This document shows, piece by piece, positions 5,945 to 34,477 of a stretch of DNA of 64,000 bases. Under the pieces are notes generated by a model. It was not told the origin of the DNA, searched no databases, and saw only the letters and a list, made by a program, of their open reading frames with translations. The position numbers were made by a program, and so were the translations under genes. Source of the DNA: Modestobacter sp. Leaf380. Its GTDB lineage: Bacteria; Actinomycetota; Actinomycetes; Mycobacteriales; Geodermatophilaceae. Position 1 is the first letter of the stretch; every line of letters begins with the position of its first letter. The stretch spans positions 767,012 through 831,011 of the forward strand of contig NZ_LMQC01000012.1 of assembly GCF_001424485.1 (NCBI RefSeq), read 5' to 3'.

Positions 5945-7327
5945 GTGGATCTGAGGGACGTCCTGCGGGCGGTGCGCTCCCGGTGGTGGCTGCCGCTGCT
6001 GGGGGCGATGCTCCTGGGCGGGGTGGGTCTGGCCGGTGGTCTGCTGCGTGCTCCCGAGTACACCTCGCACACCCAGTTCTTCGTCTCCACGACCGAGAGC
6101 GCCAACGCCTCGGACGTCTTCCAGGGCAGCCAGTTCTCCCAGCAGCGGGTCTCCTCCTACGCGCGGCTGCTGACCGGTGAGGAGCTCGCCGGCCGGGTCG
6201 TGGACCGCCTGGGCCTGGACAGCACGCCGCGGGAGCTGACCGAGCAGGTCACCGCCGAGGCCGTGGTGGACACGGTGCTCATCGACGTCGACGTCACCGA
6301 CAGGGACCCGGAGCTGGCCCAGCGGGTCGCCGCGACCCTCGGTTCGGAGTTCATCGCCCTGGTCCAGGAGCTGGAGACCCCGGGCGCCGACGGGGTCTCC
6401 CCCGTGCGCGTCACCGTGACCGACGCGGCCGACCTGCCCGACGAGCCCAGTTCCCCGGCTCCGTGGGTCTACGTGGCCGGCTGCCTGCTCGCCGGGCTGC
6501 TGCTGGGCTGCGCCGCGGCGGTCCTGCGGCAGCAGCTGGACCGGTCGGTCCGCGACCCCGGCTCGGCCGCCGAGCTCGCCGGGGCTCCGCTGGTGGGCAT
6601 CGTGCTGCGCGACAACTCGCTGCAGACCCGGCCGACGCTGGCCGCCGACGACCAGGGCAGCACGGCGGAGGGCTTCCGTCAGCTGCGCACCAACCTGCAG
6701 TTCCTGGACGTGGACCGCCCGCCGCAGGTCATCATGATCTCCAGCGCCGTCGCCGGCGAGGGGAAGTCCGTCGTCGCGGTGAACCTGGCGCTGACCCTCA
6801 CGACAGCCGGCCGTCGAGTGGCCCTGGTCGAGGCCGACCTCCGCCGTCCCCGAGCCGCCCGCTACCTCGGCGTGCCGGGGGAGGTGGGCCTGACCGACGT
6901 GCTGGCCGGGCAGGCCGGTCTCGTCGACGTCCTCCAGCCGCTGGAGGGCGGCTCGCTGTCCCTCATCGCCGCCGGCCCCATGCCCCCCAACCCCAGCGAC
7001 CTGCTCGCCTCCTCGCACATGACCGACGTGCTCAACGCCCTGCGCGCCGACCACGACTACGTGGTCATCGACGCGCCCCCGCTGCTCCCCGTCGCCGACG
7101 CCAGTGGGCTCGCGGTGGCGGTGGACGGCGTGGTCCTGGTGGTCCGGCACGGGGCGACGCACAAGGAGCAGGTGCGCCAGGCCCGCGAGACCGTCGACCG
7201 GGTCGGTGGACGGGTGCTCGGGGTGGTGCTCAACGTCGTGCCCCCCAAGGCCGCCGCCAGCGTCGCCCGGGGCTACGGCCCGGGGTCCGCGTACGCCGCG
7301 GACGCCGACCGGCTCGCACCCGGGTGA
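5945..7327 (+). CDS. Wzz/Wzc-like chain-length protein with BY-kinase domain
   Basis: 460 residues. The Wzz part has a first transmembrane helix near residues 14-32 (WWLPLLGAMLLGGVGLAGG), an extracellular domain and a second helix near 172-195. The cytosolic kinase part has Walker A AGEGKS (270-275), Walker A' VEADLRRPR (295-303) and Walker B VVIDAP (Asp376), the hallmark set of bacterial tyrosine (BY) kinases of the CpsD/Wzc type. The C-terminal tail has only a few tyrosines (GYGPGSAY), fewer than in classical Wzc. Such proteins set EPS chain length and assemble with Wzy. A tyrosine phosphatase gene follows 34 bases downstream, the usual Wzc-Wzb pairing. GTG start. Confidence 0.9.
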   Translation: MDLRDVLRAVRSRWWLPLLGAMLLGGVGLAGGLLRAPEYTSHTQFFVSTTESANASDVFQGSQFSQQRVSSYARLLTGEELAGRVVDRLGLDSTPRELTEQVTAEAVVDTVLIDVDVTDRDPELAQRVAATLGSEFIALVQELETPGADGVSPVRVTVTDAADLPDEPSSPAPWVYVAGCLLAGLLLGCAAAVLRQQLDRSVRDPGSAAELAGAPLVGIVLRDNSLQTRPTLAADDQGSTAEGFRQLRTNLQFLDVDRPPQVIMISSAVAGEGKSVVAVNLALTLTTAGRRVALVEADLRRPRAARYLGVPGEVGLTDVLAGQAGLVDVLQPLEGGSLSLIAAGPMPPNPSDLLASSHMTDVLNALRADHDYVVIDAPPLLPVADASGLAVAVDGVVLVVRHGATHKEQVRQARETVDRVGGRVLGVVLNVVPPKAAASVARGYGPGSAYAADADRLAPG

Positions 7328-7961: not shown

Positions 7962-8084
7962 AGCGGGCCGGCGGTGCCGCCGTGACCGGTCGCACCGCGA
8001 TGCCAGGTCGTGGCGCGTCACCCGGAAGGCGGAGATCGGGCAGCATGCCCTCAACCGGCGCACCCGATGTGCCGAGGAAGGGGC

Positions 8085-9968
8085 ATGCCCGTTGTCGCTG
8101 CCCTCTCGGCCGCCGTGACGCTGGCCGTGGTCGCCGTGGGCGCCCCCCTCCTCTGGCCCCGCCCGCTCACCGGCCTGCTGGCCCGCCGCGCGGCCCACGT
8201 CGTCCCCCGCGTCGTCCTCGTCGTCTGCTCCCTGTGCCTGGTGCTCCAGGTGGCTTCCTGGCCAGGGGCCGACGGCGCCTCGGTCGGTGCCCGAGCCACG
8301 GACACCACGACCGCGACGGACCTGCCCGTGGCCGAACCGCCGGGCGTGCCCGTGCCCGCCGGGCGACCGGGCTCCGCAGGTGACCCCTCGGGTCCCGGTG
8401 CCACAGCCCTCCCGGCGCCCGCCGCCGGGGCCCTCACGCAGGTCGACGACGTCCCCTCCGCGAACGACGCCGGCGCCCGGGATCCCGCAGCCCCGGCGGA
8501 CCCCGCCGGACCGGTGACAGGCGACCCCGCCGACCCCGCTGCCCCGACCGCGGCCGCCGAGGAGTCCCCCGGCGTCGCCGTCCCGGTGGTGCCCACCACC
8601 GACGAGCAGCCCGGCCCCAACGTCGTCACCCACGTGACCCAGCTGACGGAGACCTCGGCGCTGCTGGCCAACCCCGGGATGGGCTACCAGGGCTGGACCG
8701 CGACCAGCGGCGCACTCCCCCAGTCCACCGACTACCGGCGCGGGGAGCACCCCCAGCAGGGCGGCTTCGACTGGGAGTCGCTGAACCCGTCCCGCGGGGT
8801 CTACGACTGGCGCCCGGTCGACACGCTGCTGTCCCAGGCCACCGCCGCGGGCCGGCAGGCCTCCTTCCGCGTCTACACGATGAGCGGTGCGCCCTACGGG
8901 GTGAACCGCGTCCCGGCCTGGGTCGAGGCCGCCGGGGCGATCATCCGGCCGACCGCGGACCTGGAGCCGGACTACCGCTCCGGGGTGTACCAGGCCGAGT
9001 GGGGACGCTTCGTCGACGCCATGGCAGCGCGGTACGACGGCGACCCGCGGATCGCCTTCATCGACATCTCCGGGTACGGGCTGTTCAACGAGTGGCAGGC
9101 CAACCCATACACCGACCTGGCCGACGCCGTCGGGCAGAACGACAGCATCGACTCCTCGACCCGCCGGCACCTGGTGCAGGTGTTCACCGGTGGCAGCGGG
9201 ACCGCCCGGGTCCTGGCCCCCGACGGCCGCACCGAGACGACCCTGGCGTACTCCCACCGCGGGTTCCAGCGGACCCAGCTGCTGATGCCCTACGGCGGCA
9301 TGTGGTCCTCGACCCGGTACGTGCTGATCAACCACCCACAGGTGGGCTTCCGCAACGACGCGCTCTTCGGGCCCGACGCGACCCTGTCGCTCCTGTCCCG
9401 CATCGGCTACGGCATCACCGACCTCTGGAAGCGCGCCCCGGTGCTCTTCGAGGCGATCGGCCCGCCGCCGGCCGGGACGATGGCCGAGGCCGCCGCCACG
9501 ATGCGCGGCCTGGGCGCCTCCTACTTCCACGAGAACGCCGTCGTCTTCGACCGGGCCGCGCTGACCGAGCTGGTCCGTCCCCTGGGCTACCGGTACGTCT
9601 GCCGGACCGTCGAGGCGCCGGTGGTCGTCACGACCGCGACCCCGCTGACGGTCCGCACCGACTGGACCAACTCCGGGACGGCGCGCGCCTACCCACGCAC
9701 CGGCCAGGTCTTCGACGTCACGTACGCACTGGCCCGGGCGGACGGCACCGTCGTCCACACCTGGGCGCAGGGCGAGGCGGTGTCGGAGTGGCTGCCCGGC
9801 GAGCAGCACCAGCTGACCACCTCGACGGTGCTGCCCGACCTGCCCCGCGGGAGCTACCAGCTGATGGTCGGGGTCCGACAGGCCTCCGACGGCGACCGCA
9901 TCCAGCTGCCGTTGACCACCTCGCGCACCGACGGCTGGTACCCGGTCTCCTCGGTGTCGGTGGTCTGA
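8085..9968 (+). CDS. Secreted DUF4832-type glycoside-hydrolase-like protein
   Basis: The ATG at 8085 follows GAGGAAGGGG, a good ribosome site. The protein has an N-terminal signal/anchor helix, a second hydrophobic stretch (VVLVVCSLCLVLQVASW) and a long Pro/Ala/Asp-rich linker to about residue 190. The folded domain begins NPGMGYQGW (196 on), then ESLNPSRGVYDWRPVD, and has FNEWQ with Asn335-Glu336 in the place of a TIM-barrel acid/base pair. The C-terminal part (TDWTNSGTARAYPRTGQ) resembles the beta-sandwich of DUF4832 proteins. It probably acts outside the cell on a polysaccharide, plausibly the EPS made by the flanking genes; substrate and activity are inferred. Confidence 0.7.
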   Translation: MPVVAALSAAVTLAVVAVGAPLLWPRPLTGLLARRAAHVVPRVVLVVCSLCLVLQVASWPGADGASVGARATDTTTATDLPVAEPPGVPVPAGRPGSAGDPSGPGATALPAPAAGALTQVDDVPSANDAGARDPAAPADPAGPVTGDPADPAAPTAAAEESPGVAVPVVPTTDEQPGPNVVTHVTQLTETSALLANPGMGYQGWTATSGALPQSTDYRRGEHPQQGGFDWESLNPSRGVYDWRPVDTLLSQATAAGRQASFRVYTMSGAPYGVNRVPAWVEAAGAIIRPTADLEPDYRSGVYQAEWGRFVDAMAARYDGDPRIAFIDISGYGLFNEWQANPYTDLADAVGQNDSIDSSTRRHLVQVFTGGSGTARVLAPDGRTETTLAYSHRGFQRTQLLMPYGGMWSSTRYVLINHPQVGFRNDALFGPDATLSLLSRIGYGITDLWKRAPVLFEAIGPPPAGTMAEAAATMRGLGASYFHENAVVFDRAALTELVRPLGYRYVCRTVEAPVVVTTATPLTVRTDWTNSGTARAYPRTGQVFDVTYALARADGTVVHTWAQGEAVSEWLPGEQHQLTTSTVLPDLPRGSYQLMVGVRQASDGDRIQLPLTTSRTDGWYPVSSVSVV

Positions 9969-9971
9969 GGG

Positions 9972-11750
9972 TCAGGCGGCCGAGTACCCCTCGGCCTGCA
10001 GCGCGTACAGCTCGGCGTACCGGCCGTCGGCGGCCACCAGCTCCTCGTGGGTGCCGCTCTCGACGATCCGCCCCTCGTGCATGACGTAGATGAGGTCGGC
10101 GAGCCGGACGCTGGAGTAGCGGTGCGAGATCAGCACGGCCGCCCGGCCGTCCAGCACCGTGCGGACGTCGCGGAAGAGCTCGTGCTCGGCGCGGGGGTCC
10201 AGGGCCGCGCTGGGCTCGTCGAGCACCACCACGGAGGAGTCCCGGTACAGCGCCCGGGCCAGCGCCAGGCGCTGCCACTGGCCGCCGGAGAAGTCCGCGC
10301 CCTCCTCCAGCTCGACGCCCAGGACGGTGTCCATCCCCTTGTCCAGGCGGTCGACGGCCACGCCCACCCCGACCCGGTCGATCGTCTGGCGGACCCGGGC
10401 GTCGTCCCGGGGGACGGAGGTGTCGGAGATGGCCACGTTGTCGCTGACGCTCATCATGTAGCGCAGGAAGTCCTGGAACAGGACGCTGCAGCTGGCCCGC
10501 AGGTCGTCCTCGCCGAGGGGCCGGCCGTCCCAGTCCACCGAGCCCGCCCCCGGGGTGTAGAGCCCGGCCACGATCTTGGCCAGCGTGGTCTTGCCCGAGC
10601 CGTTCTCCCCGACCAGGGCGACCACCTGCCCGCGCGGCACGCTGAAGGTGACGTCCTGCAGCGCCGCCCGGTCCTGCCCCGGGTAGGTGAAGTCGACGCC
10701 GGAGACGGTGAGGGCACCGCGCAGCTCGTGGCGCCGTCCGGCGACCGGGTGCGGCGGGTGGTCGGCTTGGAACGCGGCGAGGTCGGCGAGGAAGGGCGCG
10801 GACTCGACGAGCCGGCCGAAGGACCGGAACGCGGTGCTCAGCTGCCCACCGAGCAAGCGGGCGGCGATCGCCGCCGCACCGGCGTCGGGCAGGCTGATCC
10901 GTCCGCTGGAGGCCAACCAGACGATGACGGCGAGGGCCGCGGCCAGGGCGACGGCGGAGAACACGAGCCCGGCCAGTGCCTGCCTGCGCCGTGCGGCGAC
11001 GTGTCTCTCGAGGAGGGCCAGGTACTCGGCGTCGTGACCGTCGTGTCGCCGGATGAGCTCGGGGGCGGCGTCGAAGGCGCGCAGCTCTGCGGCGGTGACC
11101 CGGTGGCTGAGCAGGGACTTCAGGTAGGCGCGCTTCTGGGTGAAGGCGGTGGCCCGCCGGGTGAAGCGGAACTCGGCCTTGGCCACCCGGCGGGAGACGA
11201 GCACCGCCGGGACGGCGCCCAGCAGCAGCACCGGGACCAGCAGGGGGGCCACCGCGACCAGCGAGGCGGTCATGGCCACCACCCCGATGAGGCTGCCCAG
11301 GACGCTGAACAGCGCCGACACCACCGACAGCGGCCGGCTGACCGCGTTGCCGCGGACGCGTTCGAGCCGGTTGAGGAAGGCGGTGGACTCGTAGGTCAGC
11401 AGGTCCACGGCCGCGCACGAGGTGAGCAGCTCGCGCCACACGTGCTGGGAGACGCGCTCGCCCAACAGCCGCTGCTGCAGGCCCTGCAGCACGCCGACCG
11501 ACGCCGAGACCGACGTCGTCACCGCGAGCAGCACGAGCGGCAGCACCAGACCCGACGCGCCGGCGCCGTCCTCGAGGATCGCGGAGAGCGCCAGGTGGCT
11601 GGCGAAGACCAGGCCGAGGCCGCTGAGCGCACCGACCACCTGGAGCGACCCGGCGGTGAGGGTGCCGCGCCGGTCCGCCCGCCACACCGTGCGGACCGCA
11701 CCGGCCAACGGGAGTCCTGCGACGGCTGTGACCGTTCGGGGGAGCCGCAC
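9972..11750 (-). CDS. ABC exporter, fused transmembrane and ATPase domains (probable lasso D protein)
   Basis: 592 residues. The N-terminal ~330 residues form a six-helix exporter domain. The ATPase domain has Walker A GENGSGKTT (Lys387), signature SGGQ, Walker B SVVVLDEPSAALD and the switch His in ISHRYSS, all intact. Proteins of this layout export peptides and lipids as homodimers. Its place beside the regulators and precursor of the lasso cluster makes it the likely D (export/immunity) protein; a lipid or EPS role cannot be excluded. The GTG at 11750 is chosen because translation from further upstream would run through the divergent regulator gene. Its stop lies 3 bases from the convergent stop at 9968. 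Confidence 0.82.
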   Translation of the reverse strand: MRLPRTVTAVAGLPLAGAVRTVWRADRRGTLTAGSLQVVGALSGLGLVFASHLALSAILEDGAGASGLVLPLVLLAVTTSVSASVGVLQGLQQRLLGERVSQHVWRELLTSCAAVDLLTYESTAFLNRLERVRGNAVSRPLSVVSALFSVLGSLIGVVAMTASLVAVAPLLVPVLLLGAVPAVLVSRRVAKAEFRFTRRATAFTQKRAYLKSLLSHRVTAAELRAFDAAPELIRRHDGHDAEYLALLERHVAARRRQALAGLVFSAVALAAALAVIVWLASSGRISLPDAGAAAIAARLLGGQLSTAFRSFGRLVESAPFLADLAAFQADHPPHPVAGRRHELRGALTVSGVDFTYPGQDRAALQDVTFSVPRGQVVALVGENGSGKTTLAKIVAGLYTPGAGSVDWDGRPLGEDDLRASCSVLFQDFLRYMMSVSDNVAISDTSVPRDDARVRQTIDRVGVGVAVDRLDKGMDTVLGVELEEGADFSGGQWQRLALARALYRDSSVVVLDEPSAALDPRAEHELFRDVRTVLDGRAAVLISHRYSSVRLADLIYVMHEGRIVESGTHEELVAADGRYAELYALQAEGYSAA

Positions 11751-11776
11751 GACGGCCGATCCTAGGCGGCTTCGTC

Positions 11777-11782
11777 TAGCCT
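11777..11782 (+). promoter_or_regulatory. -10 element TAGCCT of a probable leaderless transcript
   Basis: TAGCCT fits the actinobacterial TANNNT -10 and ends seven bases before the ATG at 11790, so transcription would start at or next to the start codon. No ribosome-binding site precedes this ATG, which supports a leaderless mRNA. The same hexamer stands six bases before the GTG at 40471. Confidence 0.5.
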
Positions 11783-11789
11783 TCGGCGC

Positions 11790-12347
11790 ATGTCGGACGG
11801 CGACCCGTCGGGGGCGGACGCCCCGCTGGTGGTCGCTGTCGTGGACCCGCGACCCTTGGTGAGGGATCGACTGCATTCCGTCATCGACGGTCTGGACGGG
11901 GTGCACGTGCAGGCGGTCTACGCGGCCTGGTCGGACGTGCCCGCGCCAGTGGACGAGGACGTGGTGTGGGTGGGGCCCACCCACAACCGACTGGTCTCCG
12001 CGCGGCAGGTCAGCCTCGAGGACGTCGGCGTCGACGACCCGGGCGGCGTCCTCGCCCAGCTGCACTCCCCCGGCGTCGCCACCGCGCCGGACCCCGCGGA
12101 CGCCGACGACGTGGACCTCACCCACCGGCCGCTCTCCCCGCGGGAGGCCGTCGTGCTGGAGGGGATCGCCCGGGGCCGCAGCGCCACCGAGATCGCGGAG
12201 GACCTGGGGATCAGCACGAAGGCCGTGGAGAACGCCCGGCGCCGGGCGATGGAGAAGCTCGACGTCACCACCCAGGTCGAGGCGGTGTCCCGGGCGCACG
12301 CGCTGCGGGCGGCCGGGGTGGACCTCACCGGCGGGCGACTGCGGTGA
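11790..12347 (+). CDS. LuxR-type regulator with degenerate receiver-like N-terminus
   Basis: The C-terminal residues 115-175 are a LuxR/FixJ helix-turn-helix (LSPREAVVLEGIARGRSATE onward, with STKAVENARRRAMEKL as recognition helix). The N-terminus starts like a receiver (VVAVVDPRPLVRDRL) but then loses the fold markers: the phosphorylation-site region reads DEDVVWVGPTHN with no Asp in the canonical place. It therefore probably does not respond to a histidine kinase. It overlaps the next LuxR gene by four bases (GTGA), and the pair stands between the ABC exporter and the lasso precursor, so it is likely to control the lasso cluster. Confidence 0.75.
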   Translation: MSDGDPSGADAPLVVAVVDPRPLVRDRLHSVIDGLDGVHVQAVYAAWSDVPAPVDEDVVWVGPTHNRLVSARQVSLEDVGVDDPGGVLAQLHSPGVATAPDPADADDVDLTHRPLSPREAVVLEGIARGRSATEIAEDLGISTKAVENARRRAMEKLDVTTQVEAVSRAHALRAAGVDLTGGRLR

Positions 12348-12982
12348 GCGGGGCACCGCTGTCGGTCGTCGTCGCGGGCGGGTCCCGGCTCGTCAGGTCG
12401 GTCCTCCGGTCCAGCCTGCTGGAGTCCGCCGCCGGGCTGGCCGCCGTCGAGGTGGCCGAGGACCCCGAGGAGGTCGTGGCCCGGTGCGCGGCGGGTGCGC
12501 AGGTCGTGGTGGCCGGCACGACGATCGCCGGGGTGCCACTGGCCGAGGTGATGCCCCTGGCCCTGGCGTCGTCCGCGCGCGTCCTCGTGGTCTGCAACCG
12601 TGCCTCGGCCGGACTGGTCCCCGAGCTGCTGCTGCGCGGCGCGTCGGGCTACCTGGTGCTCGAGGAGTGCCGGGCGCAGGAGCTGTGGACGGCGGTGCAG
12701 GACGCGGCCGCGGGCGGGGCGACCCTGCACCCCGGCATCGCCACGCTGATCCTGGAGCAGTGGCGGGAGGCGCGGGCGGAGAGCCGGCCGGAGCTGACCG
12801 CGAAGGAGACCGAGGTGCTGCAGGCCATGCTCAGCGGCGACCCGGTGAAGTCGATCGCCCGCGAGCTGGGGTTGTCGGCGCGGACCGTGGACGCCCACCG
12901 GTCGCGGATCTACGTGAAGCTGGGCGTGAAGAGCCACGCCCAGGCGGTCCAGCGAGCGCTGGACCTGGGGCTGCTCGCGTGA
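12344..12982 (+). CDS. LuxR-type regulator, receiver lacking the phospho-acceptor Asp
   Basis: 212 residues. Residues 1-125 keep the length and beta/alpha rhythm of a response-regulator receiver, but the acidic pair (GGSRLVRSVL where DD is normal) is missing and the phospho-site reads QVVVAGTTIAG, with Gly58 where Asp is expected. Residues 151-207 form an intact LuxR HTH (LTAKETEVLQAMLSGDPVKS, SARTVDAHRSRIYVKLGV). The GTG start overlaps the upstream stop. It probably forms a dimer or heterodimer with the preceding regulator and acts independently of phosphorylation. It ends at a strong hairpin shared with the lasso precursor gene. Confidence 0.78.
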   Translation: MSGAPLSVVVAGGSRLVRSVLRSSLLESAAGLAAVEVAEDPEEVVARCAAGAQVVVAGTTIAGVPLAEVMPLALASSARVLVVCNRASAGLVPELLLRGASGYLVLEECRAQELWTAVQDAAAGGATLHPGIATLILEQWREARAESRPELTAKETEVLQAMLSGDPVKSIARELGLSARTVDAHRSRIYVKLGVKSHAQAVQRALDLGLLA

Positions 12983-12995
12983 GCAGCGGTGCGCC

Positions 12996-13017
12996 GGCGG
13001 GTGCTCACGCACCCGCC
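12996..13017. terminator. Bidirectional hairpin terminator between regulator and lasso precursor
   Basis: A perfect 9-base-pair stem, GGCGGGTGC / GCACCCGCC, with a TCAC loop, lies between two convergent stops (12982 and 13027). The symmetric GC-rich stem without a U tract is usual for actinobacterial terminators and could serve both strands. Confidence 0.65.
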
Positions 13018-13026
13018 AGCAGCCCG

Positions 13027-13197
13027 TCAGTTGGAGACGTTGCCGTTCTCGTCCGACTCGCCGATGGCGATGTTGCCGACACCCGGGATGACCAGGATGA
13101 CGCCGTCGGCAGCGCCGAAGGACTTGAACTGCAGGGTCATGTCGTGCAGCGAGCCGATCGTGGTGATGGCGGGCGCAGCGTAGGTGTTCTCGAGCAA
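13027..13197 (-). CDS. Lasso peptide precursor (A)
   Basis: A 56-residue peptide. The leader (1-22) has the conserved YxxPxLxxxGxxxxxT pattern: Tyr6, Pro9, Ile11 in place of Leu, Gly15, and Thr21 at the penultimate leader position. Cleavage after Leu22 gives a core starting QFKSFGAAD, whose ninth residue is Asp31, the right distance for a 9-residue macrolactam ring. The core is long (34 residues): a hydrophobic middle (GVILVIPGVGNIAIG) then an acidic/Asn-rich tail ending NVSN. An N-terminal Gln on the core is unusual. The start is TTG at 13197, six bases after GGGAG. The B1, B2 and cyclase genes lie nearby on the same strand and the kinase gene is divergent. Confidence 0.85.
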   Translation of the reverse strand: MLENTYAAPAITTIGSLHDMTLQFKSFGAADGVILVIPGVGNIAIGESDENGNVSN

Positions 13198-13306
13198 GGT
13201 GTTCTCCCGTTCGTCAGGTGTAGGGAGACCGTATGGTCCCGACCGGCCGGGAGGCACCGAGCAGCATCACCTAGGTGACTCGGGACGCACGGGGAGTGAG
13301 TGACAC
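13198..13306. promoter_or_regulatory. Divergent control region of the lasso precursor and kinase genes
   Basis: This region contains a perfect 12-base palindrome, TCACCTAGGTGA (13267-13278), 28 bases before the kinase ATG, and a second dyad GACC-GTAT-GGTC (13227-13238). The second dyad carries -10-like hexamers on both strands: TATGGT at 13232-13237 on the plus strand and TACGGT on the minus strand (13228-13233). Either dyad could bind the LuxR-type regulators encoded next door. The operator role is inferred. Confidence 0.5.
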
Positions 13307-14134
13307 ATGAGGCTGGGCTGCTACGGATTCGCGCTGCCGGACCTGACGGAGGCCGCGCACCTGCTCCGGTCGGTGGCGCCGGAGGCGCCCGCCCTGCGGG
13401 TGACGCAGAGCCGGCCGTCGGCGGGCCAGTCGCTGGACGCCGAGCCGGACGACCCCGGGTCGATCCCCTTCAGCGGCGGCGGAGGGCACGTGCGGCTGGA
13501 CCGCGGCGGGATGGCCGCGCACTACGTCACCGACCGCGAGATCCCCCACGAGCACCTGGTGCACCCGTACCTGGCCCGTGTGATGGCGTCCGCGGCGGCA
13601 TGGCTGGACCGCGACGCCCTGCACGCGGGGGCCATCGACCTCGACGGCCGGGCCTGGGGGGTCCTCGGCACCCGGGACTCCGGCAAGAGCTCGCTGCTCA
13701 CCCAGGCCCACGTGCTCGGCCTGCCGGTGCTCACCGACGACGTCGTGGTGATCGCCGACGGCGAGGTGCTGCCCGGCCCGGCGTCGATCGACCTGCGCGA
13801 GGGGGCGGCCGAGCACTTCGGCATCGGGGAGGCACTGGGCAGGGTCGGCCGACGCGATCGTTGGCGGGTGACCCTGCCCCCGGCCTCCGCCGCCCCGCTG
13901 GCCGGCTGGGTGTTGCCACTGTGGGACGACGACGTGTCGGTGACGCCGGTGCCGCTGACCTCACGGCTGCCGGTGCTGATGGTCAACCGGGCGCTCCCGG
14001 GCCCTCCCCCGGACCCGGCGCAGTTCTTCGACCTGGCCGCGCTCCCGATCGTGGTGTGGCGACGGCCCCGCGACTGGACCCGGATGGCCGAGGCGACCGA
14101 CGTCCTGCTGGAGCACCTGCGCCGGGTCAGCTGA
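13307..14134 (+). CDS. HPr-kinase-like protein, probable lasso precursor kinase (K)
   Basis: 275 residues. The C-terminal domain matches HPr kinase/phosphorylase folds: HAGA (106-109), P-loop GTRDSGKSS (121-129) and LTDD (142-145), followed by a beta-rich end. The HPr-specific tail is missing, as in the homologous kinases of paeninodin-type lasso clusters, which phosphorylate the C-terminal Ser of the precursor (known for that family). Here the precursor ends Ser-Asn, so the target would be penultimate Ser55 or Ser48, which is a mismatch to test. ATG start, divergent from the precursor gene; the 3' end overlaps the convergent cyclase gene by 8 bases. Confidence 0.78.
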   Translation: MRLGCYGFALPDLTEAAHLLRSVAPEAPALRVTQSRPSAGQSLDAEPDDPGSIPFSGGGGHVRLDRGGMAAHYVTDREIPHEHLVHPYLARVMASAAAWLDRDALHAGAIDLDGRAWGVLGTRDSGKSSLLTQAHVLGLPVLTDDVVVIADGEVLPGPASIDLREGAAEHFGIGEALGRVGRRDRWRVTLPPASAAPLAGWVLPLWDDDVSVTPVPLTSRLPVLMVNRALPGPPPDPAQFFDLAALPIVVWRRPRDWTRMAEATDVLLEHLRRVS

Positions 14135-15296
14135 CGTGCGCGGCCCACACCGACTGCAGCAGCGGCCAGGTGCGGGCGTCGGGGTCCTCCCCCGCCCAGG
14201 TGGCGGCCAGGCGCTCGACGTCGACGAGCTCGTGGTCGACCCCTGAGCCGTCCCACCGGGCCACGAACGCCCGGGTCTCAGGCCCCCAGAACGCACCGTT
14301 GAAGGTGGCCTTGCCGACCCGGACGAGCGTCTCCCGCGGGAGGACGTCGGCGAACAGGCGGATGGTCTCCCGCGAGCGGTGCAGGGGTCCGGCGCGCCCC
14401 CGCTCCCGGGCCACGGCCTGCAGGAAGCGGGGGTCGTTGAAGGGGTGCGCGACGGCCGCGCCGTGCCCGGCGGCCAGCAGCCCCAGGCTCTGCCGGGTGA
14501 CCTGGACGTAGCGGGAGGACCACCAGTGCCGCAGGACCGCCTGGTCGTGCCGCACCGGCTCGAGGTCGCGCAGCCGCTTCCACTCCTCCTGCACCTGCGC
14601 ATCGACCTCGGGGCGCAGCCAGGGGCTGGGGGCACTGGGCTCGGGACGACGGTCCAGGACCCGCCGGCGGACGGCGTGCGGCGCCCGGCTGGCGAGCAGC
14701 TCGACGAGGTCGGAGGGTGCCGGGCGGGCGCGGCGGGTGAGCACCCGGTTGAGCCGGTCCCACGCCCAACCCGGCGACATGATCTCGTCACCGCCGAAAC
14801 CCGTGAGCAGCGTCCCGCCGCGCGCAAAGGGGGCGATCGGGGCGTGGAAGGCGGTGTTGGCCGGCCAGAGGACGCCGTGCCGCTCGATCTCCCGGGTCGC
14901 CACGGGGCCCAGCAGGTCCAGCTCGGTGTCGACCTCCACGCGGTGCCACTCGACGCCCCCGACCTCGGCGACGACCTTCTCCTGCCAGGCGGTCTCCTCG
15001 GCTGCGGGGACGCCGGTGAAGCGCAGGCTCACCGCGACGGGAGGGGCCAGCCCCTCCCGGCGGGCGATGCGCGCCGCGACCGCCAGCACAGCGGAGGAGT
15101 CCCGGCCGCCGGAGAAGGAGACGACGCACGGCCCGTGTCGCAGGGCCTCGCGGACGACCTGCTCGAAGGCGACCCGGGCGGTCGGGGTGCCGGGGAGCGC
15201 CGGTGGGAGCGAGGCGGCGGGGTCCAGGCCCAGCACGAAGCCCGCCGCCAGCTCCAGCGGCGACATCTGCCAGGCACCGCGAGCGGCTGCGGTCAC
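14127..15296 (-). CDS. Lasso macrolactam synthetase (C), short asparagine-synthetase-like
   Basis: 389 residues. The PP-loop SGGRDS (62-67) and GFGGDEIMSPG downstream are the ATP-pyrophosphatase motifs of asparagine synthetase B. In lasso clusters the C protein adenylates the ring-acceptor Asp/Glu and closes the macrolactam with the new N-terminus. Most C proteins are near 600 residues with an N-terminal glutaminase-like domain; here only about 60 residues precede the PP-loop, so that domain is absent. The GTG start overlaps the B2 stop (GTGA), so it is the last gene of the operon. Role assigned from context plus motif. Confidence 0.85.
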   Translation of the reverse strand: MTAAARGAWQMSPLELAAGFVLGLDPAASLPPALPGTPTARVAFEQVVREALRHGPCVVSFSGGRDSSAVLAVAARIARREGLAPPVAVSLRFTGVPAAEETAWQEKVVAEVGGVEWHRVEVDTELDLLGPVATREIERHGVLWPANTAFHAPIAPFARGGTLLTGFGGDEIMSPGWAWDRLNRVLTRRARPAPSDLVELLASRAPHAVRRRVLDRRPEPSAPSPWLRPEVDAQVQEEWKRLRDLEPVRHDQAVLRHWWSSRYVQVTRQSLGLLAAGHGAAVAHPFNDPRFLQAVARERGRAGPLHRSRETIRLFADVLPRETLVRVGKATFNGAFWGPETRAFVARWDGSGVDHELVDVERLAATWAGEDPDARTWPLLQSVWAAHVS

Positions 15297-15718
15297 CGCG
15301 GGGGCAACCGGTGCAGCTCGGTGTACGTCTGGGCCACGGCGTCGCCGGCCTCGATGTCCAGCCAGGCGTGGGCCTTGACCTCACCGCCGGTCTTCGCAAC
15401 GCCGATGACCACCTCGCAGGGCACGTCGTGGGCCGCCAGCCAGGTCTGCAGCACGAGGCTGCGCTCCAGGCAGGTCGGCTCGGTCCGGCGCAGCACGAAC
15501 TCCACGCCGCGGCGCGCCCCGGCGGTGAGTGCCGGGGCCGGGGGCGGGACGGTCGCCTGCACCCCGTCCCGGGCCAGTGCGGCGCGCGCCGACCGCAGGC
15601 TGCGGTGCGCCCACCAGGCGCCACGGGCGCTGGCCAGACTCCACCGCCCGACCAACGGAGCCCGGCGGTAGGCGCGCCACTGGTCGGGCCCGTGCAGCCG
15701 GGAGGGGTAGCCGGTCAC
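15293..15718 (-). CDS. Lasso leader peptidase (B2), transglutaminase-like fold
   Basis: 141 residues. The Cys-His-Asp triad of the transglutaminase-like B2/McjB C-terminal family is visible: Cys83 in PTCLERSLVLQ, His117 in KAHAWLD and Asp121. It cleaves the leader after the penultimate-Thr motif of the precursor. As in other actinobacteria, the leader-binding half is a separate protein (B1), encoded immediately upstream with a GTGA overlap; it also overlaps the cyclase gene. Confidence 0.88.
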   Translation of the reverse strand: MTGYPSRLHGPDQWRAYRRAPLVGRWSLASARGAWWAHRSLRSARAALARDGVQATVPPPAPALTAGARRGVEFVLRRTEPTCLERSLVLQTWLAAHDVPCEVVIGVAKTGGEVKAHAWLDIEAGDAVAQTYTELHRLPPR

Positions 15719-15996
15719 CCCTCGAGCAGCCCCCGGGTGCGCGCGTCCGCCAGGAAGGCGGCGACGTCGGTCGCCGCGCGCTCACGGTCGATCCCGAACT
15801 CCTGCTGCAGTGCATCGACCAGCGCCGGCTCGGTCGTGCCGTCGGCGATCCGGGTCCACAGGACCCGCCCGGCGGCGTTGACCCCGAGGTAGTCCGAGGT
15901 GGCCAGGTCCAACGCGATGACCTCGCCGTCGGCCTCGCGCCAGGAGACCGCGCCGGGGCGCAGCCTGATCTCCGTGTCCGATCCAGGAGTGGTCAC
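15715..15996 (-). CDS. Lasso leader-binding protein (B1), PqqD-like RRE
   Basis: 93 residues with the PqqD/RRE pattern DLATSDYLGVNAAGRVLWTR (30-49) followed by a helical end. RRE proteins bind the precursor leader, chiefly its Tyr-Pro motif, and present it to B2. GTG at 15996 is chosen one base after the methyltransferase stop, behind a G-rich site (GGGGACGGGCGG); an open frame extends upstream but would lie inside the methyltransferase gene. It overlaps B2 by four bases. Confidence 0.85.
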   Translation of the reverse strand: MTTPGSDTEIRLRPGAVSWREADGEVIALDLATSDYLGVNAAGRVLWTRIADGTTEPALVDALQQEFGIDRERAATDVAAFLADARTRGLLEG

Positions 15997-15997
15997 G

Positions 15998-16801
15998 TCA
16001 CCGCCCGTCCCCGGGCCCGCCCGCTGCCTGCCCGACGGCCCAACCGTAGTCACCGGTCCCGCTGGCGACGAGGGTGAGACCCGCCGCGGCCACCTCGTCG
16101 CGGATCTGGGCGCGGGTGAAGTGGTGGGCGAAGTTGGGTGAGAGGGCGTCACCGAGGACCGGTGCCTCCCGGTGACGCCAGCGGCGCAGCACCCGGGCCA
16201 CCCGGTGGGCCGCGGTGAACTGCCGGCGGTCCGCCGGCATCGGGAAGTAGGAGAGGACGACGACGCCCCGTCCGCCGGTGGCTGCAGCCGCCGTCCGCAG
16301 CAGCTCGACGCGCTGGGCGCGGGAGGGCACCAGCATGTAGGAGCCCCACCCCAGGACGACGGCGTCCGCGGTGACGCCGGCCGGGACGACCGAGCGGTCG
16401 GAGACGTGCACCCGGGCGCCGAAGCCGTCGGCCTCGGTCAGCGTCGACCCGAAGGAGGCGAGGGCGGCGTTGGGCTCGTACCCCTGGACGTCGAACCCCG
16501 CGGCCAGCAGGGCGAGGACCTCCCGTCCGCCACCGGCGCCGGTGACGAGCACGCGACTGCCCGGTGCGAGGTGCTCGCGCACCACGTGCTCCTCCCAGGG
16601 GAAGAGACCACGGCGGTTGTGCGCCTCGGTCAGGTAGACGGCCTCACCGTCGTAGTAGGCCTGGTCCAGCCGGGCCAGCTGCTCCTCGTCCAGGAACCCA
16701 AGCCACAGCCCGTCCCACACCCCCCGCACCCGCTGGACCAGCGACTCCAGCAGCCGGTCGCCCCGCAGGTAGACGCTCAGCCACCCCGGTCGGGCGCTCA
16801 C
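15998..16801 (-). CDS. Class I SAM-dependent methyltransferase in the lasso operon
   Basis: 267 residues. Motif I, VLVTGAGGGRE (84-94), then an acidic strand end (GYEPNAALA) and AVVLGWGSYML define a class I Rossmann methyltransferase. It overlaps the nucleotidyltransferase gene (GTGA) and is followed one base later by B1, so it belongs to the lasso operon. Methylation of a lasso C-terminus is known for lassomycin-type clusters, but this protein is not obviously of that type; the target could be the peptide or a phosphate/nucleotide group added to it. The function is inferred from position. Confidence 0.75.
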   Translation of the reverse strand: MSARPGWLSVYLRGDRLLESLVQRVRGVWDGLWLGFLDEEQLARLDQAYYDGEAVYLTEAHNRRGLFPWEEHVVREHLAPGSRVLVTGAGGGREVLALLAAGFDVQGYEPNAALASFGSTLTEADGFGARVHVSDRSVVPAGVTADAVVLGWGSYMLVPSRAQRVELLRTAAAATGGRGVVVLSYFPMPADRRQFTAAHRVARVLRRWRHREAPVLGDALSPNFAHHFTRAQIRDEVAAAGLTLVASGTGDYGWAVGQAAGGPGDGR

Positions 16802-17997
16802 GCGGCCTCCGCCGACACCGCGGTCAGGTAGGCCGCCAGGTCGGTGGGGTCGCCGGAGGGGTAGAGCGTGGAGCCCGGGTGCTCGGGGCCCTGCACGAAG
16901 GCGACGGCACCGGACGGGCCCTGCAGGCGGCGGCGAGCACGGCGCAGCAGCAGGTCGACGACCCGCCGGTCCTCCAGCGCACCGGTGGACAGCCGGGCCG
17001 GCCACCCGCCGGTGTCGCTGGTCGCCCGAGCCGCGGTCCGGCCCACCAGTCGCTCGGCCAGCGCCCAGTCCCGTCCCAGCAACGAGCGGAGCACCGCCGG
17101 GGGCACCGGGGTGCCCACGAGCGTGGCGCTGCGCTGGAGCACGAGCCCGATGGGCACCGGGACACCCCACGCCCGGGCCGTGGCGATCAGCTGGTCCCAG
17201 TCGACGGCCCGGTCCTGCACGGACAGGGCCACGTCCAACAGCCAGGAGACCCGGGAGGCCCCCGCGAGGGCGGCGTGCAGGCAGACGTGCGCGAGGGCCA
17301 CGTCGGGCTGCAGCACCGGGGCGGTGGTCGAGCCGAGCGGCACCCGCTCGACGTCCCGGAGCAGGTCGGCGGTGGAGATCGTCGCCCGCTGCCGGCGCAG
17401 GGACCGGTTGATCATCGTCCAGTGCAGGTCGATCGAGGTGCCGTGCCGGCCGACGGCCGCGACCTCGCCGGGCACCTCCCGGCGCAGGAGCGTGAAGTTG
17501 CGGCTGAGCAGGCCGCCGCCGGTGGCGCTGAGCGCGCGCAGCGCGTCCCCCAGGCGGTCCGGCGGTACCAGCAGGTCGAGGTCGATGGCACTGCGGGCCA
17601 CGCCCACCCGGGCGTACACCGCGCTGAGCACCGGGCCCTTGAAGCAGGCCCACGGGATGTGGGCGGCGTCGAGGGCTGCTCCGGCGACGGCCAGGTCGGC
17701 ATCGGCCTGCACCTGTCGCCTGCGTGCCCGGCCCAGCCGCTTCTCGGCCGCCTCCCGCACCGCGGCCGGCAGACCGGGGACCTCCTCGGCGTGGGCGGCC
17801 AGCGTCAGCCAGCCGCGGTGCTGGCTGAGCGCAGCCTCCAGCTCGGCCGTGTCCCCCGCCCAGTGCGGCGCGGCACCCGGTCGACCGGCCACCCGGCGCA
17901 CCGCCCACAGGACGAGGTCAGAGGGGACTGTCGTGCTCCGGGGGGACGGCTCCGTTGACGACACCCGGACATGCTCGCCCACCACGCGTGGGACCAC
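16798..17997 (-). CDS. Nucleotidyltransferase family protein in the lasso operon
   Basis: About 399 residues (GTG 17997; a GTG at 17964 is an alternative). The segment ACFKGPVLSAVYARVGVARS followed by AIDLDLLVPP is the pattern of the NTP_transf_5 family (KG, then R..DLDLLV with metal-binding Asp residues). The rest is helical. The same family occurs beside the HPr-kinase-like gene in paeninodin-type lasso clusters, where its role is not established. It is the first gene of the five-gene lasso operon and starts 5 bases after the UDP-glucose dehydrogenase stop, so read-through from the EPS genes is possible. Confidence 0.75.
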   Translation of the reverse strand: MVPRVVGEHVRVSSTEPSPRSTTVPSDLVLWAVRRVAGRPGAAPHWAGDTAELEAALSQHRGWLTLAAHAEEVPGLPAAVREAAEKRLGRARRRQVQADADLAVAGAALDAAHIPWACFKGPVLSAVYARVGVARSAIDLDLLVPPDRLGDALRALSATGGGLLSRNFTLLRREVPGEVAAVGRHGTSIDLHWTMINRSLRRQRATISTADLLRDVERVPLGSTTAPVLQPDVALAHVCLHAALAGASRVSWLLDVALSVQDRAVDWDQLIATARAWGVPVPIGLVLQRSATLVGTPVPPAVLRSLLGRDWALAERLVGRTAARATSDTGGWPARLSTGALEDRRVVDLLLRRARRRLQGPSGAVAFVQGPEHPGSTLYPSGDPTDLAAYLTAVSAEAA

Positions 17998-18001
17998 CAG
18001 G

Positions 18002-19321
18002 TCAGCCTGCGCGGCGCCCCAGTGCGCGGTAGGACCAGCCGGCCGCCTCCCACGCGTCCCGGTCCAGCGCCTGCCGACCGTCGAGCACGCGCTTCTTGGC
18101 CACGATCTGCCCGAAGGCGACCGGGTCGAGCTCGCGGAACTGCTTCCACTCGGTGAGCAGCAGGACGGCGTCGGCGCGCTCGGCGGCCTCCTCGGCGGAG
18201 TCGACGACGAGCAGCTGCGGCCACGAGCGCTTGATGTTCTCGTTGGCCGCCGGGTCGGTCACCTGGACGCTGGCGCCCTGCAGCTGCAGCTGGGCGGCCA
18301 CGTTCAGCGCCGGGGAGTCCCGGATGTCGTCGGAGTCGGGCTTGAAGGCGGCGCCGAGGACGGCGATGCGCTTGCCCACCAGGGACCCGTCGCAGACCTC
18401 GCGGGCCAGGTCGACCATCCGGATGCGGCGGCGCATGTTGATGTTGTCGACCTCGCGCAGGAACGTCAGCGCCTGGTCGGCACCGAGCTCGCCGGCCCGG
18501 GCCATGAACGCGCGGATGTCCTTGGGGAGGCAACCGCCACCGAAGCCGAGGCCGGCGTTGAGGAACTTGCGGCCGATCCGGTCGTCGTGGCCGATGGCGT
18601 CGGCCAGCTGCTTCACGTCCGCGCCGGTGGCCTCGCAGAGCTCGGCCATGGCGTTGATGAAGGAGATCTTGGTTGCCAGGAAGGAGTTGGCCGCGGTCTT
18701 CACCATCTCCGCGGTCGCGTAGTCGGTGACCACCTGCGGGGTGCCGGCGTCGACGATGGAGGCGTAGACCTCGTCGAGGGTGGCCTGGGCGGTGTCGCCG
18801 TCGGGGCCGGCGGGGATGCCGTAGACGAGCCGGTCGGGGTGCAGCGTGTCCTGGACGGCGAAGCCCTCGCGGAGGAACTCCGGGTTCCAGGCGAGGATCG
18901 CGCCGGGGACCTTGCCGCTGACCAGCTCGGCGAGCCGGGCCGCCGTCCCCACCGGGACGGTGGACTTGCCGACGACGAGCTCACCGGGCTGCAGGACCTG
19001 CAGCAGCGACTCGGTGGCCGCCTCGACGTAGCGCAGGTCGGCGGCGTACTCACCGCGCTTCTGCGGGGTGCCGACGCAGACGAAGTGGACGGCGCTGCCG
19101 GCGGCCTCGGCCATGTCGGGGCTGAAGCGCAGCCGGCCCGAGGCGAGCGAGCGGCCGAGCAGTTCCTCGAACCCGGGCTCGTGGAACGGCGCCTTGCCGG
19201 CGGAGAGCAGCTGGGCCTTGGGGACGTCGACCTCGATGCCGACGACGTCGTGGCCGAGCTCGGCCATGGAGGCGGCGTGGACGGCACCGAGGTAGCCGCA
19301 ACCGATCACGGAGATGCGCAC
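18002..19321 (-). CDS. ugd: UDP-glucose 6-dehydrogenase
   Basis: 439 residues. The N-terminal NAD site is SVIGCGYLGAVHAASMAELG ending with acidic GIEVD. The catalytic Cys264 lies in GFGGGCLPKD, and the C-terminal UDP-binding half includes LGAAFKPDSDDIRDSPAL. It oxidises UDP-glucose to UDP-glucuronate in the cytosol, supplying acidic sugar for the EPS. GTG start, eight bases after AAGGA. It lies downstream of the sugar-phosphate transferase gene on the same strand (56-base gap). Confidence 0.93.
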   Translation of the reverse strand: MRISVIGCGYLGAVHAASMAELGHDVVGIEVDVPKAQLLSAGKAPFHEPGFEELLGRSLASGRLRFSPDMAEAAGSAVHFVCVGTPQKRGEYAADLRYVEAATESLLQVLQPGELVVGKSTVPVGTAARLAELVSGKVPGAILAWNPEFLREGFAVQDTLHPDRLVYGIPAGPDGDTAQATLDEVYASIVDAGTPQVVTDYATAEMVKTAANSFLATKISFINAMAELCEATGADVKQLADAIGHDDRIGRKFLNAGLGFGGGCLPKDIRAFMARAGELGADQALTFLREVDNINMRRRIRMVDLAREVCDGSLVGKRIAVLGAAFKPDSDDIRDSPALNVAAQLQLQGASVQVTDPAANENIKRSWPQLLVVDSAEEAAERADAVLLLTEWKQFRELDPVAFGQIVAKKRVLDGRQALDRDAWEAAGWSYRALGRRAG

Positions 19322-19377
19322 GGGGTGGGTCCTTGTCGTTGCAGGGGACGCGGTCCGCAGACCGCGTACGGACTGGG

Positions 19378-20880
19378 TCAGTAGGCGCCGGAGCCGCGGA
19401 ACACGGCTCCCACGGTCTTCCACAGGATCATGAAGTCGAACATCAGGGACCAGTTCTCCACGTAGCGCACGTCGATGCGCACGGAGTCGTCCCACGACAG
19501 GTCGGACCGGCCGCTGATCTGCCAGAGCCCGGTGATGCCGGGCTTGACCAGGAAGCGCCGGTGCATGTCGAAGCCGTAGCGCTCGACCTCGCGGGGCAGC
19601 GGCGGGCGGGGGCCCACGAGCGACATCTGGCCGGTGAGCACGTTGAGGAGCTGGGGCAGCTCGTCGAGGGAGTAGCGGCGCAGGACCCGGCCCACGCGGG
19701 TGACCCGCGGGTCGCCCTTCATCTTGAACAGGACGCCGTTGCCCTCGTTCACCGGCTGCAGGGCGGCCAGCCGGGCCTCGGCGTCGACGACCATGCTGCG
19801 GAACTTGAGCATGGTGAAGACGCGGCCGTCCTGCCCGACCCGCTGCTGCCGGTAGAAGACCGGGCCGCTGCTGGTGGCCTTGACGGCGGCGGCGGTGGCG
19901 GCCAGGACCGGGAGCAGCAGCACGATGACGAGGGCGGCGGCGCACTTGTCGACGGCGGCCTTCGTCAGGCGCCGGATGCCGCGCATCTCGGGGCGCTCCA
20001 CGTGCATGAGCGGCAGCCCGCAGACGGGGCGGATGTTGACCCGGGGGCCGACGACCTCGGTGACGGCCGGGGCCAGCAGGAGCTCGGCCCGGGTCTTCTC
20101 CAGCTCCCAGCCGAGCCGACGCAGCTTGGCGCCGTCCAGCTCGGGGCTGGGGAGGACGGCCACGGTGTCCACCTCGTGCCGGCGGACGACCTCGGCCACC
20201 TGGTCGAGGTCACCCAGGACGGGGACCCCGTCGAACCAGCCGCCCTCGGCACCGCCGGGGACACAGAACCCGATGACGTCGTAGCCCTGGTACGGCTCGC
20301 TGTCGATCTGCTGGTGGAGAGCAGCGACGCCGTTGCGGTGACCCACGACGATCGTCGTCTGCATGAACCGGCCGTGTGCACGCTGGCGGTGCAGCCATGC
20401 CCGGTGGGCGTAGCGGGTCACCAAGGTCACCAGGGTCGCCAGCGGGATGGCGACGACGACGAAGCCGCGGGCCAGGTCCAGCCGGAACGCCCAGGACACG
20501 GTGCCGACGCCGGCCAGCAGGCAGATGGCGGCCGATGCGACCCGGCGGAACTCCTCGGCGCCGATCCAGAGGAAGCGCTGCTCGTAGGCCCGGTTCAGGG
20601 ACATCACCGCGACCCACGCGGCGGGCAGGACCAGCACGGTCCAACCGGGCGCACCCACCTCGGGCAGGGCGCCGGGCTGCGTCGGGCCGAACCGGACGAA
20701 GAAGCCCACGACACCGCCCAGCAGGGCGGCCAGCACGTCGAACCCGACGAGCCGGATGACGTAGTTCTTGCGCCAGCGGCGGCGGGCGACGGTGCCCTCG
20801 CCGCGCAGTCGGTCGGCGAAGCGGAAACGGGAGACCCGCGGGGCCTGGACACGGGCGACATCCGACTCGACCTGGGTCAC
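19378..20880 (-). CDS. Polyprenyl-phosphate sugar-1-phosphate transferase (EPS initiating enzyme)
   Basis: 500 residues. It has several N-terminal transmembrane helices, a soluble CoA-binding-like domain in the middle, then the PF02397-type catalytic end: a hydrophobic helix (AALVIVLLLPVLAATAAAV), SSGPVFYRQQRVGQDGRVF, KFRSM, DELPQLLNVLTGQMSLVGPR and the final KPGITGLWQISGR. It transfers a sugar-1-phosphate (often glucose or galactose) from a UDP-sugar to undecaprenyl phosphate, the first membrane step of EPS assembly. The GTG start follows GAGGGAGAG. The nearby glycosyltransferases would extend its product. Confidence 0.92.
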   Translation of the reverse strand: MTQVESDVARVQAPRVSRFRFADRLRGEGTVARRRWRKNYVIRLVGFDVLAALLGGVVGFFVRFGPTQPGALPEVGAPGWTVLVLPAAWVAVMSLNRAYEQRFLWIGAEEFRRVASAAICLLAGVGTVSWAFRLDLARGFVVVAIPLATLVTLVTRYAHRAWLHRQRAHGRFMQTTIVVGHRNGVAALHQQIDSEPYQGYDVIGFCVPGGAEGGWFDGVPVLGDLDQVAEVVRRHEVDTVAVLPSPELDGAKLRRLGWELEKTRAELLLAPAVTEVVGPRVNIRPVCGLPLMHVERPEMRGIRRLTKAAVDKCAAALVIVLLLPVLAATAAAVKATSSGPVFYRQQRVGQDGRVFTMLKFRSMVVDAEARLAALQPVNEGNGVLFKMKGDPRVTRVGRVLRRYSLDELPQLLNVLTGQMSLVGPRPPLPREVERYGFDMHRRFLVKPGITGLWQISGRSDLSWDDSVRIDVRYVENWSLMFDFMILWKTVGAVFRGSGAY

Positions 20881-21982: not shown

Positions 21983-22328
21983 GCGTCCTCCTGTCGGTGC
22001 CCGACCCGTCAGAGCGGTCGTGGCGTTACGCGGGGCGGCCCCGCTGACGTCGACCCCGCCGCCCGCGGACCCGGACACTGTCCCAGACCCACAGGAGCGG
22101 CGGCCCTCCCTATGACCGCCGAGCCCGAGCACCTGCAGTGATGTCCGTCGCTGACCCACCCAACCGATGGCACGACCGATATCGTCACCCGCCAGTGGTC
22201 CTCTGATGACAGCGCGCAGTCAGTGCCGCCCGTGCCACGTCGTCCTGCGCACCGACCGACCACCACTCCCGCACAAAGCTCAACCCGACTGAGCAAGACG
22301 ACCCACGACGAGGGCGAGGCACGCTCCG
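21983..22328. other. 346-base divergent intergenic region without a gene
   Basis: This separates the minus-strand glycosyltransferase from the plus-strand flippase operon and should carry both promoters. No open frame with coding character, RNA gene or convincing repeat was recognised. Confidence 0.4.
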
Positions 22329-25060: not shown

Positions 25061-25061
25061 C

Positions 25062-26327: not shown

Positions 26328-26329
26328 CC

Positions 26330-26396: not shown

Positions 26397-26401
26397 GTCT
26401 G

Positions 26402-28730: not shown

Positions 28731-28732
28731 CC

Positions 28733-30964: not shown

Positions 30965-30965
30965 G

Positions 30966-32960: not shown

Positions 32961-34472
<1,512 letters not shown>

Positions 34473-34477
34473 CCGGG

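Follow-up and report, generated by a model that had tools for sequence, protein, structure and literature searches.

Clusters that pair a kinase with a nucleotidyltransferase form a described branch of lasso peptide biosynthesis. Those of the paeninodin-like type (kinases PadeK and ThcoK) combine discrete B1 and B2 proteins with an HprK-like kinase bearing a His-Lys-Asp-Asp set and an NTP transferase, in capsule or exopolysaccharide (EPS) surroundings (PMC13381572, PMC9266682). In Bacilli, capsule loci carry clusters that combine a kinase and an NTP transferase with an MsbA-like exporter, and both the paeninodins and the linear polyphosphorylated peptides (LPPs) have been called Bacillota-restricted, their biological roles being called unknown (PMC13381572). 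Here we describe a complete lasso-type locus for a ribosomally synthesized and post-translationally modified peptide (RiPP) in an actinobacterium, Modestobacter sp. Leaf380, at positions 9972-17997 of a 64,000-nucleotide stretch of contig NZ_LMQC01000012.1 (the window). Its precursor peptide belongs to a family in which Lys stands almost invariably six residues before a conserved Asp, and we tentatively propose that this Lys closes the ring.

The locus shares with the paeninodin-like clusters each of the parts named above, and differs from them in its actinobacterial host, a YxxP rather than a WxxP leader (Tyr in 14 of 14 aligned precursors), a short cyclase, the Lys-x5-Asp rule, an extra methyltransferase and the position of its Ser, which is next to last, whereas the known kinases modify a C-terminal Ser. 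Pseudomycoidin offers the same pairing of a kinase (PsmK) with an adjoining nucleotidyltransferase-family protein (PsmN, needed for the hexose on phospho-Ser; PMC9266682), the window counterpart matching PF14907 with 107.7 bits, but ring spacing, host phylum and methyltransferase set the window apart. The bsf lasso cluster of Bradymonadales likewise has a kinase (BsfK) and a nucleotidyltransferase (BsfN) outside Bacillota, and its kinase modifies a Ser that is not the final one in the peptide chain; the cluster has Ile at -2 and a predicted Gly1-Asp8 ring, in contrast to the Thr and variable Asp position of the window family (PMC10368454). LPP clusters, often in capsule loci, also combine kinase, NTP transferase, RiPP recognition element and MsbA-like exporter, yet they have no cyclase and rely on a SipW-like signal peptidase (PMC13381572); the window has a cyclase, and no Pfam match to a signal peptidase was found among its ten cluster proteins. 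A methyltransferase within the cluster recalls the methylated lassos (StspM, lassomycin), although the template for modelling StspM was mitomycin 7-O-methyltransferase (PMC9266682) and the window enzyme resembles only Methyltransf_23, below the cut-off.

By gene content, then, the locus would work like a paeninodin or pseudomycoidin cluster. It is no paeninodin, given its leader, its phylum and its last residue. Macrolactams between a Lys side chain and an acid are otherwise familiar from graspetides, where ATP-grasp ligases make them; no such ligase was matched in Pfam among the ten cluster proteins. Since kinase, nucleotidyltransferase and capsule are described together for Bacilli, that part of the locus is of a known kind. 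Without a full-length cyclase, and with 14 of 19 family precursors failing the usual rule for the position of the ring acid, the whole is a variant of the lasso kind and not a plain member of it.

Lys and Asp spacing across the precursor family

The precursor peptide of the window (A) has a TTG start at 13197 with GGGAG upstream. Its leader, which ends in YAAPAITTIGSLHDMTL, conforms to the pattern YxxPx(L/I)xxxGxxxxxT given for it in the preliminary description of this DNA, and the predicted core, QFKSFGAADGVILVIPGVGNIAIGESDENGNVSN, contains Lys3 and Asp9, core position 1 being the residue after Thr-x. Related loci, 17 in number, supplied 19 precursors of this Lys type, 14 aligned and five found afterwards. 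Leader Tyr, Pro, Gly and Thr and core Lys and Asp are invariant in the 14 aligned precursors. Asp wanders across the 19, from core position 9 (five precursors) through 10 (six) and 11 (five) to 12, 13 and 16 (one each), and Lys wanders with it, lying exactly six residues before Asp in 17 precursors and seven before it in two. The Thr-Asp distance has a standard deviation of 1.66, the Lys-Asp distance one of 0.31. When the residues between Thr and Asp were shuffled, Lys fell at -6 in a mean of 2.4 precursors (maximum 10), and none of 20,000 shuffles reached 17. The two residues also move together between particular loci: the window and locus L012 have Lys3 and Asp9, L021 and L022 have Lys4 and Asp10, and the single extra residue between Thr and Lys in the latter pair, whose cyclases are 66 and 62% identical to that of the window, shifts both.

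Lasso precursors have been defined by Asp or Glu at core positions 7-9 (PMC10368454). Asp9 of the window fits this definition, but the family does so in only 5 of 19 precursors, compared with 45 of 46 control precursors collected with similar leader patterns (all 43 of a first set and two of the three from L127-L129, L129 being the exception). Most control rows came from a search pattern demanding an acid at core 6-13, which somewhat favours the control, and the same filter applied to those Lys-type rows that came from that search. Control rows L114, L115, L118 and L120-L122 are stretches where no short cyclase was detected, and no short-cyclase search was made for L126-L129. Chance frames in L016, L021 and L107 were dropped as having no cluster around them, and the pattern search found no precursor at L107 or L116. 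A separate array was seen at L029:5448-6191 (minus strand) in an Acidimicrobiia metagenome-assembled genome, where seven successive leader-bearing mini precursors have cores of 10-13 residues, very short for a threaded ring.

At the C-terminal end of the core, Ser is the last residue in 13 of the 19 precursors and last or next to last in 17; the window precursor ends NVSN.

The short cyclase and its relatives

Of the 668 positions in the NCBIfam lasso cyclase model, the window cyclase covers 243-381 alone (28.7 bits, cut-off 525). The N-terminal half of the model was unmatched, the protein has no N-terminal glutaminase-like domain, and none of the ten cluster proteins matched a glutaminase-type Pfam family. 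The PP-loop is intact in seven aligned Geodermatophilaceae proteins. An AlphaFold model (mean predicted local distance difference test score, pLDDT, 90.3) resembles TsnB9 and asparagine synthetase (template modelling score by query 0.41-0.52), and a sequence search of the PDB with the cyclase profile gave no match at E 0.01.

The relatives share this shortness. SGGxDS could be read in 39 related cyclase frames, and in 29 of these a stop lies no more than 124 residues ahead of it, too close to leave room for the missing domain. The other ten frames are open for 170-348 residues ahead of the motif; eight of them have a cluster gene directly upstream (B2 in L012, L015, L016, L022, L023, L024 and L026, the exporter in L027), the remaining two being those of L034 and L036. 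Because the loci were fetched with short-cyclase profiles, full-length relatives would be under-represented and no overall frequency of the short form is given. The preliminary description had named the short cyclase among the features of this locus; short it is, but as a trait of the clade, common to related loci. We also rejected the short cyclase as a mark of the Lys type, since the other group has short cyclases too. At L106, a stretch of under 20 kb in one genome (G612) holds a pair of short cyclases along with a pair of precursors.

A full-length match to the cyclase was found in 7 of 112 Geodermatophilaceae genomes, the source included, with a weak match in three more (L018-L020), which were dropped as no gene block was seen there. 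Scanning genome contigs with the single window cyclase returned no relative; scanning with the cyclase alignment returned 20 loci, all with actinobacterial titles, among them Blastococcus, Nocardioides flavescens, Cellulomonas carbonis, Jatrophihabitans, Thermoleophilia, Solirubrobacteraceae, Acidimicrobiia and Micromonospora. Further loci were taken from sampled genomes, duplicates being counted once (L013 = L021, L014 = L022, L137 = L026), and a plasmid search with the cyclase gave no match.

Lys-type cyclases tend to stand together. On a maximum-likelihood tree of 38 cyclases, 17 of them Lys-type rows, the Lys-type label needs two changes (three, against 12.5 when shuffled, if L025 is labelled as other), compared with a mean of 12.8 for shuffled labels, none of 500 shuffles being as low as two; kinship among the rows makes any label cluster in this statistic. 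A single origin of the Lys type is compatible with the starred branches of this tree, which does not establish one. Asn147 of the window cyclase is present in 16 of 16 Lys-type proteins compared with 6 of 19 others (L029, L031 and L040 left out). Together with Asp196 and Asp373, likewise conserved in Lys-type and not in other cyclases, it is a candidate Lys contact.

Ring closure and its alternatives

A side-chain ring of Lys-x5-Asp has 26 atoms, as against 25 and 28 for N-terminal rings of eight and nine residues, whereas N-terminal rings to Asp10-Asp13 come by arithmetic to 31-40. If the cut site is fixed relative to Thr, an N-terminal ring would need six sizes over the 19 precursors, and lasso production is reported to fall significantly when the ring size changes by one residue (PMC13352647). 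It is this sensitivity, together with the fixed Lys-Asp distance and the 26-atom ring, that leads us to propose closure by Lys. Taken whole, a lasso-type product that is cyclised ATP-dependently between the Lys side chain and Asp, phosphorylated near its C-terminus and decorated is our preferred reading, held somewhat short of an even chance from what the sequences suggest.

By homology, B1 would bind the YxxP leader and B2 would cut one residue past the leader Thr. The short cyclase may then adenylate the ring Asp (Asp9 in the window), with the side-chain amine of the Lys six residues earlier (window Lys3), and not the N-terminal amine, as the putative nucleophile. The resulting macrolactam of 26 ring atoms would leave a free N-terminal tail, a possible target for the methyltransferase, which by homology would methylate some position of the peptide. 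The kinase would phosphorylate a Ser near the C-terminus, and the nucleotidyltransferase-family protein, for which we propose a PsmN-like role by analogy, would attach a sugar or nucleotide to that phosphate, so that the peptide is probably phosphorylated and sugar-decorated. The MsbA-like exporter would secrete the product, perhaps to act at the polysaccharide coat. The calculated mass of the dehydrated full window core is 3369.68 Da, and that of a form starting at Lys 3094.56 Da.

Several observations weigh against closure by Lys. The published lasso nucleophile is the N-terminus (PMC13352647, PMC10368454), and in the window peptide and the four others with Lys3 the acid is Asp9, which a canonical nine-residue ring fits. 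Judged by eye, a second Thr could serve as the -2 residue in four precursors (L015, L024, the first of L028 and L040) and would return Asp to position 7 or 9; by the same reading no such rescue is available for L021, L022, L025, both of L026, L027, the second of L028, L030, L037 and L105. Lys six before an Asp also occurs in 5 of the 43 first-set control precursors, and conservation of Lys could serve recognition. The division into Lys-type and other precursors is post hoc, kinship among the rows keeps the counts from being independent, and the precursor of L025 was found with a pattern requiring Lys and Asp, that of L105 with a profile containing them. Short cyclases serve both groups, so that the missing domain leaves Lys unexplained; the cyclases of L029 and L031, whose precursors lack Lys, are placed without resolution near the Lys-type ones, and that of L040 falls among the others. 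B2, finally, was detected in 14 of 17 loci and not in L028, L030 or L040.

One alternative is an ordinary class II lasso, in which B2 cuts after Thr-Leu, the amine of Gln1 joins Asp9, Lys is structural or serves recognition, relatives have larger rings, and the kinase, nucleotidyltransferase and methyltransferase tailor the product as in paeninodin and pseudomycoidin. The window core, with Asp at position 9, is compatible with this ring, which the preliminary description had assumed; Thr is invariant in all 14 aligned leaders, B1, B2 and the cyclase belong to lasso-type families, and the kinase and nucleotidyltransferase chemistry is known (PMC9266682). For most family precursors, however, an N-terminal ring is doubtful, as those outside the five with an acid at 7-9 would call for rings of 10-13 or more residues, and nothing in this reading accounts for the constant gap between Lys and Asp. 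We regard an ordinary lasso as unlikely, though a substantial contender. Trimming by a peptidase to make Lys residue 1, with its alpha-amine joined to Asp7 in a 22-atom ring of xanthomonin size, would turn Lys-x5-Asp into the exact 1-7 spacing, and Thr does stand at -2 of Lys in L015 and L024. Yet the Thr-Lys distance and the residue before Lys (F, Y, A, D, G, N, P, T, H or S over the 19 precursors) vary, which offers no constant cut site, and the only PF13471 match in the source genome is the cluster's own B2; such a seven-residue ring seems improbable. Least plausible, with little probability left to it, is that Lys is a substrate of the nucleotidyltransferase-family protein or the methyltransferase at a fixed distance from Asp in a non-lasso or linear product, for although phosphorylated linear relatives exist (LPPs, PMC13381572) and the methyltransferase is weakly like a daptide methyltransferase model, the locus has a cyclase, whose PP-loop is preserved in all seven family proteins aligned, and genes detected in 13 and 8 of 17 loci, respectively, explain Lys in all 19 precursors in neither case.

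Tailoring genes, polysaccharide setting and significance

Every component named in the preliminary description was found where it had been placed, with EPS genes on both sides, as follows.

9972..11750, minus strand: MsbA-like ATP-binding cassette (ABC) exporter, probable GTG start at 11750; ABC_tran 105.7 bits
11790..12347, plus strand: LuxR-type regulator 1; GerE 51.3 bits
12344..12982, plus strand: LuxR-type regulator 2; GerE 64.1 bits, present in 6/6 other family loci
13027..13197, minus strand: precursor peptide A, 56 aa; matched in 6/6 other Geodermatophilaceae loci
13307..14134, plus strand: kinase K, HPr-kinase fold, 275 aa; His-Lys-Asp-Asp set, AlphaFold model, PDB matches
14127..15296, minus strand: short macrolactam cyclase C, 389 aa, PP-loop SGGRDSS; Asn_synthase 53 bits
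15293..15718, minus strand: leader peptidase B2, Cys...His-Ala-Trp motif; NF033537 49.3 bits (cut-off 33)
15715..15996, minus strand: B1, PqqD-like RiPP recognition element, probable GTG start at 15996; PqqD 58.4 bits
15998..16801, minus strand: class I S-adenosylmethionine-dependent methyltransferase MT, 267 aa; Methyltransf_23 21.5 bits, under cut-off
16798..17997, minus strand: NTP_transf_5 family protein NT, 399 aa; PF14907 107.7 bits, DxD and DLHW motifs
5945..7327, plus strand: EPS flank, Wzz-like chain length protein with ParA/AAA_31 domain
18002..19330, minus strand: EPS flank, UDP-glucose/GDP-mannose dehydrogenase family protein; UDPG_MGDP_dh domains
19378..20880, minus strand: EPS flank, sugar transferase; Bac_transf 231 bits

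NT, MT, B1, B2 and C run closely packed on the minus strand from 17997 to 14127, with overlaps of a few bases at NT/MT, B1/B2 and B2/C. K is oriented opposite to this block, both LuxR-type genes lie on the plus strand, and A and the exporter lie on the minus strand. Pfam cut-offs are exceeded by B1, B2, C (as Asn_synthase), NT, the exporter and both LuxR-type proteins (ABC_tran 25 bits; GerE 23.5; PqqD 23.4; Transglut_core3 26; Asn_synthase 21; NTP_transf_5 31.2), B2 matching Transglut_core3 with 47.2 bits besides the lasso B2 model NF033537. A homology search placing B1, B2 and C in unrelated families had been named as one way to refute the claim of a lasso-type RiPP cluster; once run against Pfam and NCBIfam, it put all three within lasso-type families, and the claim was not refuted. 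The top NCBIfam model for the exporter, MsbA_lipidA, scored 230.8 bits, under its cut-off. Neither LuxR-type regulator has a Pfam match to a receiver domain, and A has no family match in Pfam or NCBIfam.

Kinase residues His106, Lys127, Asp144 and Asp145 are invariant in 7/7 family and 18/18 aligned proteins; judged by sequence, the catalytic set is intact, and the paeninodin-type layout claimed earlier, with its tailoring genes, holds. The HPr-kinase likeness is borne out by fold and catalytic set but not by family models: there is no Pfam match, and NCBIfam matches lie far under cut-off (FomB kinase 24.3 bits, HprK_rel_A 16.1). An AlphaFold model (pLDDT 94.3) matches PEP (phosphoenolpyruvate) carboxykinases first in the PDB, with HPr kinases at ranks 38, 44, 47 and 48. 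Sequence searches of the PDB gave only weak matches for the kinase and the methyltransferase. The latter keeps its class I motif (GAGGGREVLAL, invariant in 6/6 aligned) but reaches only 21.5 bits against a Methyltransf_23 cut-off of 27, and at 21.8 bits, against a cut-off of 175, it resembles the daptide methyltransferase model too faintly for the match to carry weight.

By tblastn, A, K, C, B2, B1, the exporter, LuxR-type regulator 2 and NT are present in all six other family loci (NT at L016 by a weak match only, E 3e-5) and MT in five of the six. Over the 17 loci the kinase was detected in every one, weakly or partially in L028 (38 bits) and L040 (19 bits), and NT in 13, some weakly. The added methyltransferase, present in the window as described, is facultative, being detected in 8 of 17 loci, or 8 of 14 if only loci of more than 12 kb are considered; L026, L028 and L040 are contigs shorter than 10 kb, so gene absence there says little. 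By eye, its presence showed no clear link with the last precursor residue. L017 has two B1 genes (5526-6276 and 9089-9358), one beside an inverted B2 separated from C.

The flanking EPS genes on the two sides comprise Wzy_C, glycosyltransferases, Wzz-like, UGD, Bac_transf, flippase-type Polysacc_synt and pyruvyltransferases. The EPS embedding is thus as first described, a combination with kinase and nucleotidyltransferase already reported for Bacilli (PMC13381572). A DUF4832 protein at 8010-9968 adjoins the exporter inside the EPS block. Across 21092-38611, selected frames have a GC content at third codon positions of 0.75-0.87, compared with mostly 0.91-0.98 on either side, which may hint that this part of the EPS genes was acquired from elsewhere.

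The Lys-Asp spacing rule and the proposal of closure by Lys appear to be new, and the kinase, nucleotidyltransferase and EPS combination known; neither a lasso closed by Lys nor a short cyclase for lassos is announced in the literature titles and abstract openings searched, subscription journals being mostly uncovered. With some hesitation, and at a probability appreciably below one half, we suggest that these loci may form a subfamily, within Actinomycetota, of RiPPs made by lasso machinery. Its short, one-domain cyclase would link the side chain of an internal Lys to Asp six positions later, leaving the N-terminus free and giving a lasso-like ring with a tail on both sides, in a peptide that is phosphorylated, glycosylated and sometimes methylated for a polysaccharide coat. 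If Lys does close the ring, lasso-type cyclases would not be bound to the N-terminus, and a way would open to build rings in the interior of a peptide; the recognition of precursors in genome mining would also change, as the acid-at-7-9 rule would miss 14 of 19. If it does not, rings of at least 10 residues or an unknown cut site would be implied, both unusual for lassos. Either way, the kinase, nucleotidyltransferase and EPS association of Bacilli is extended into Actinomycetota, a setting in which deleting genes can probe a role in the coat.

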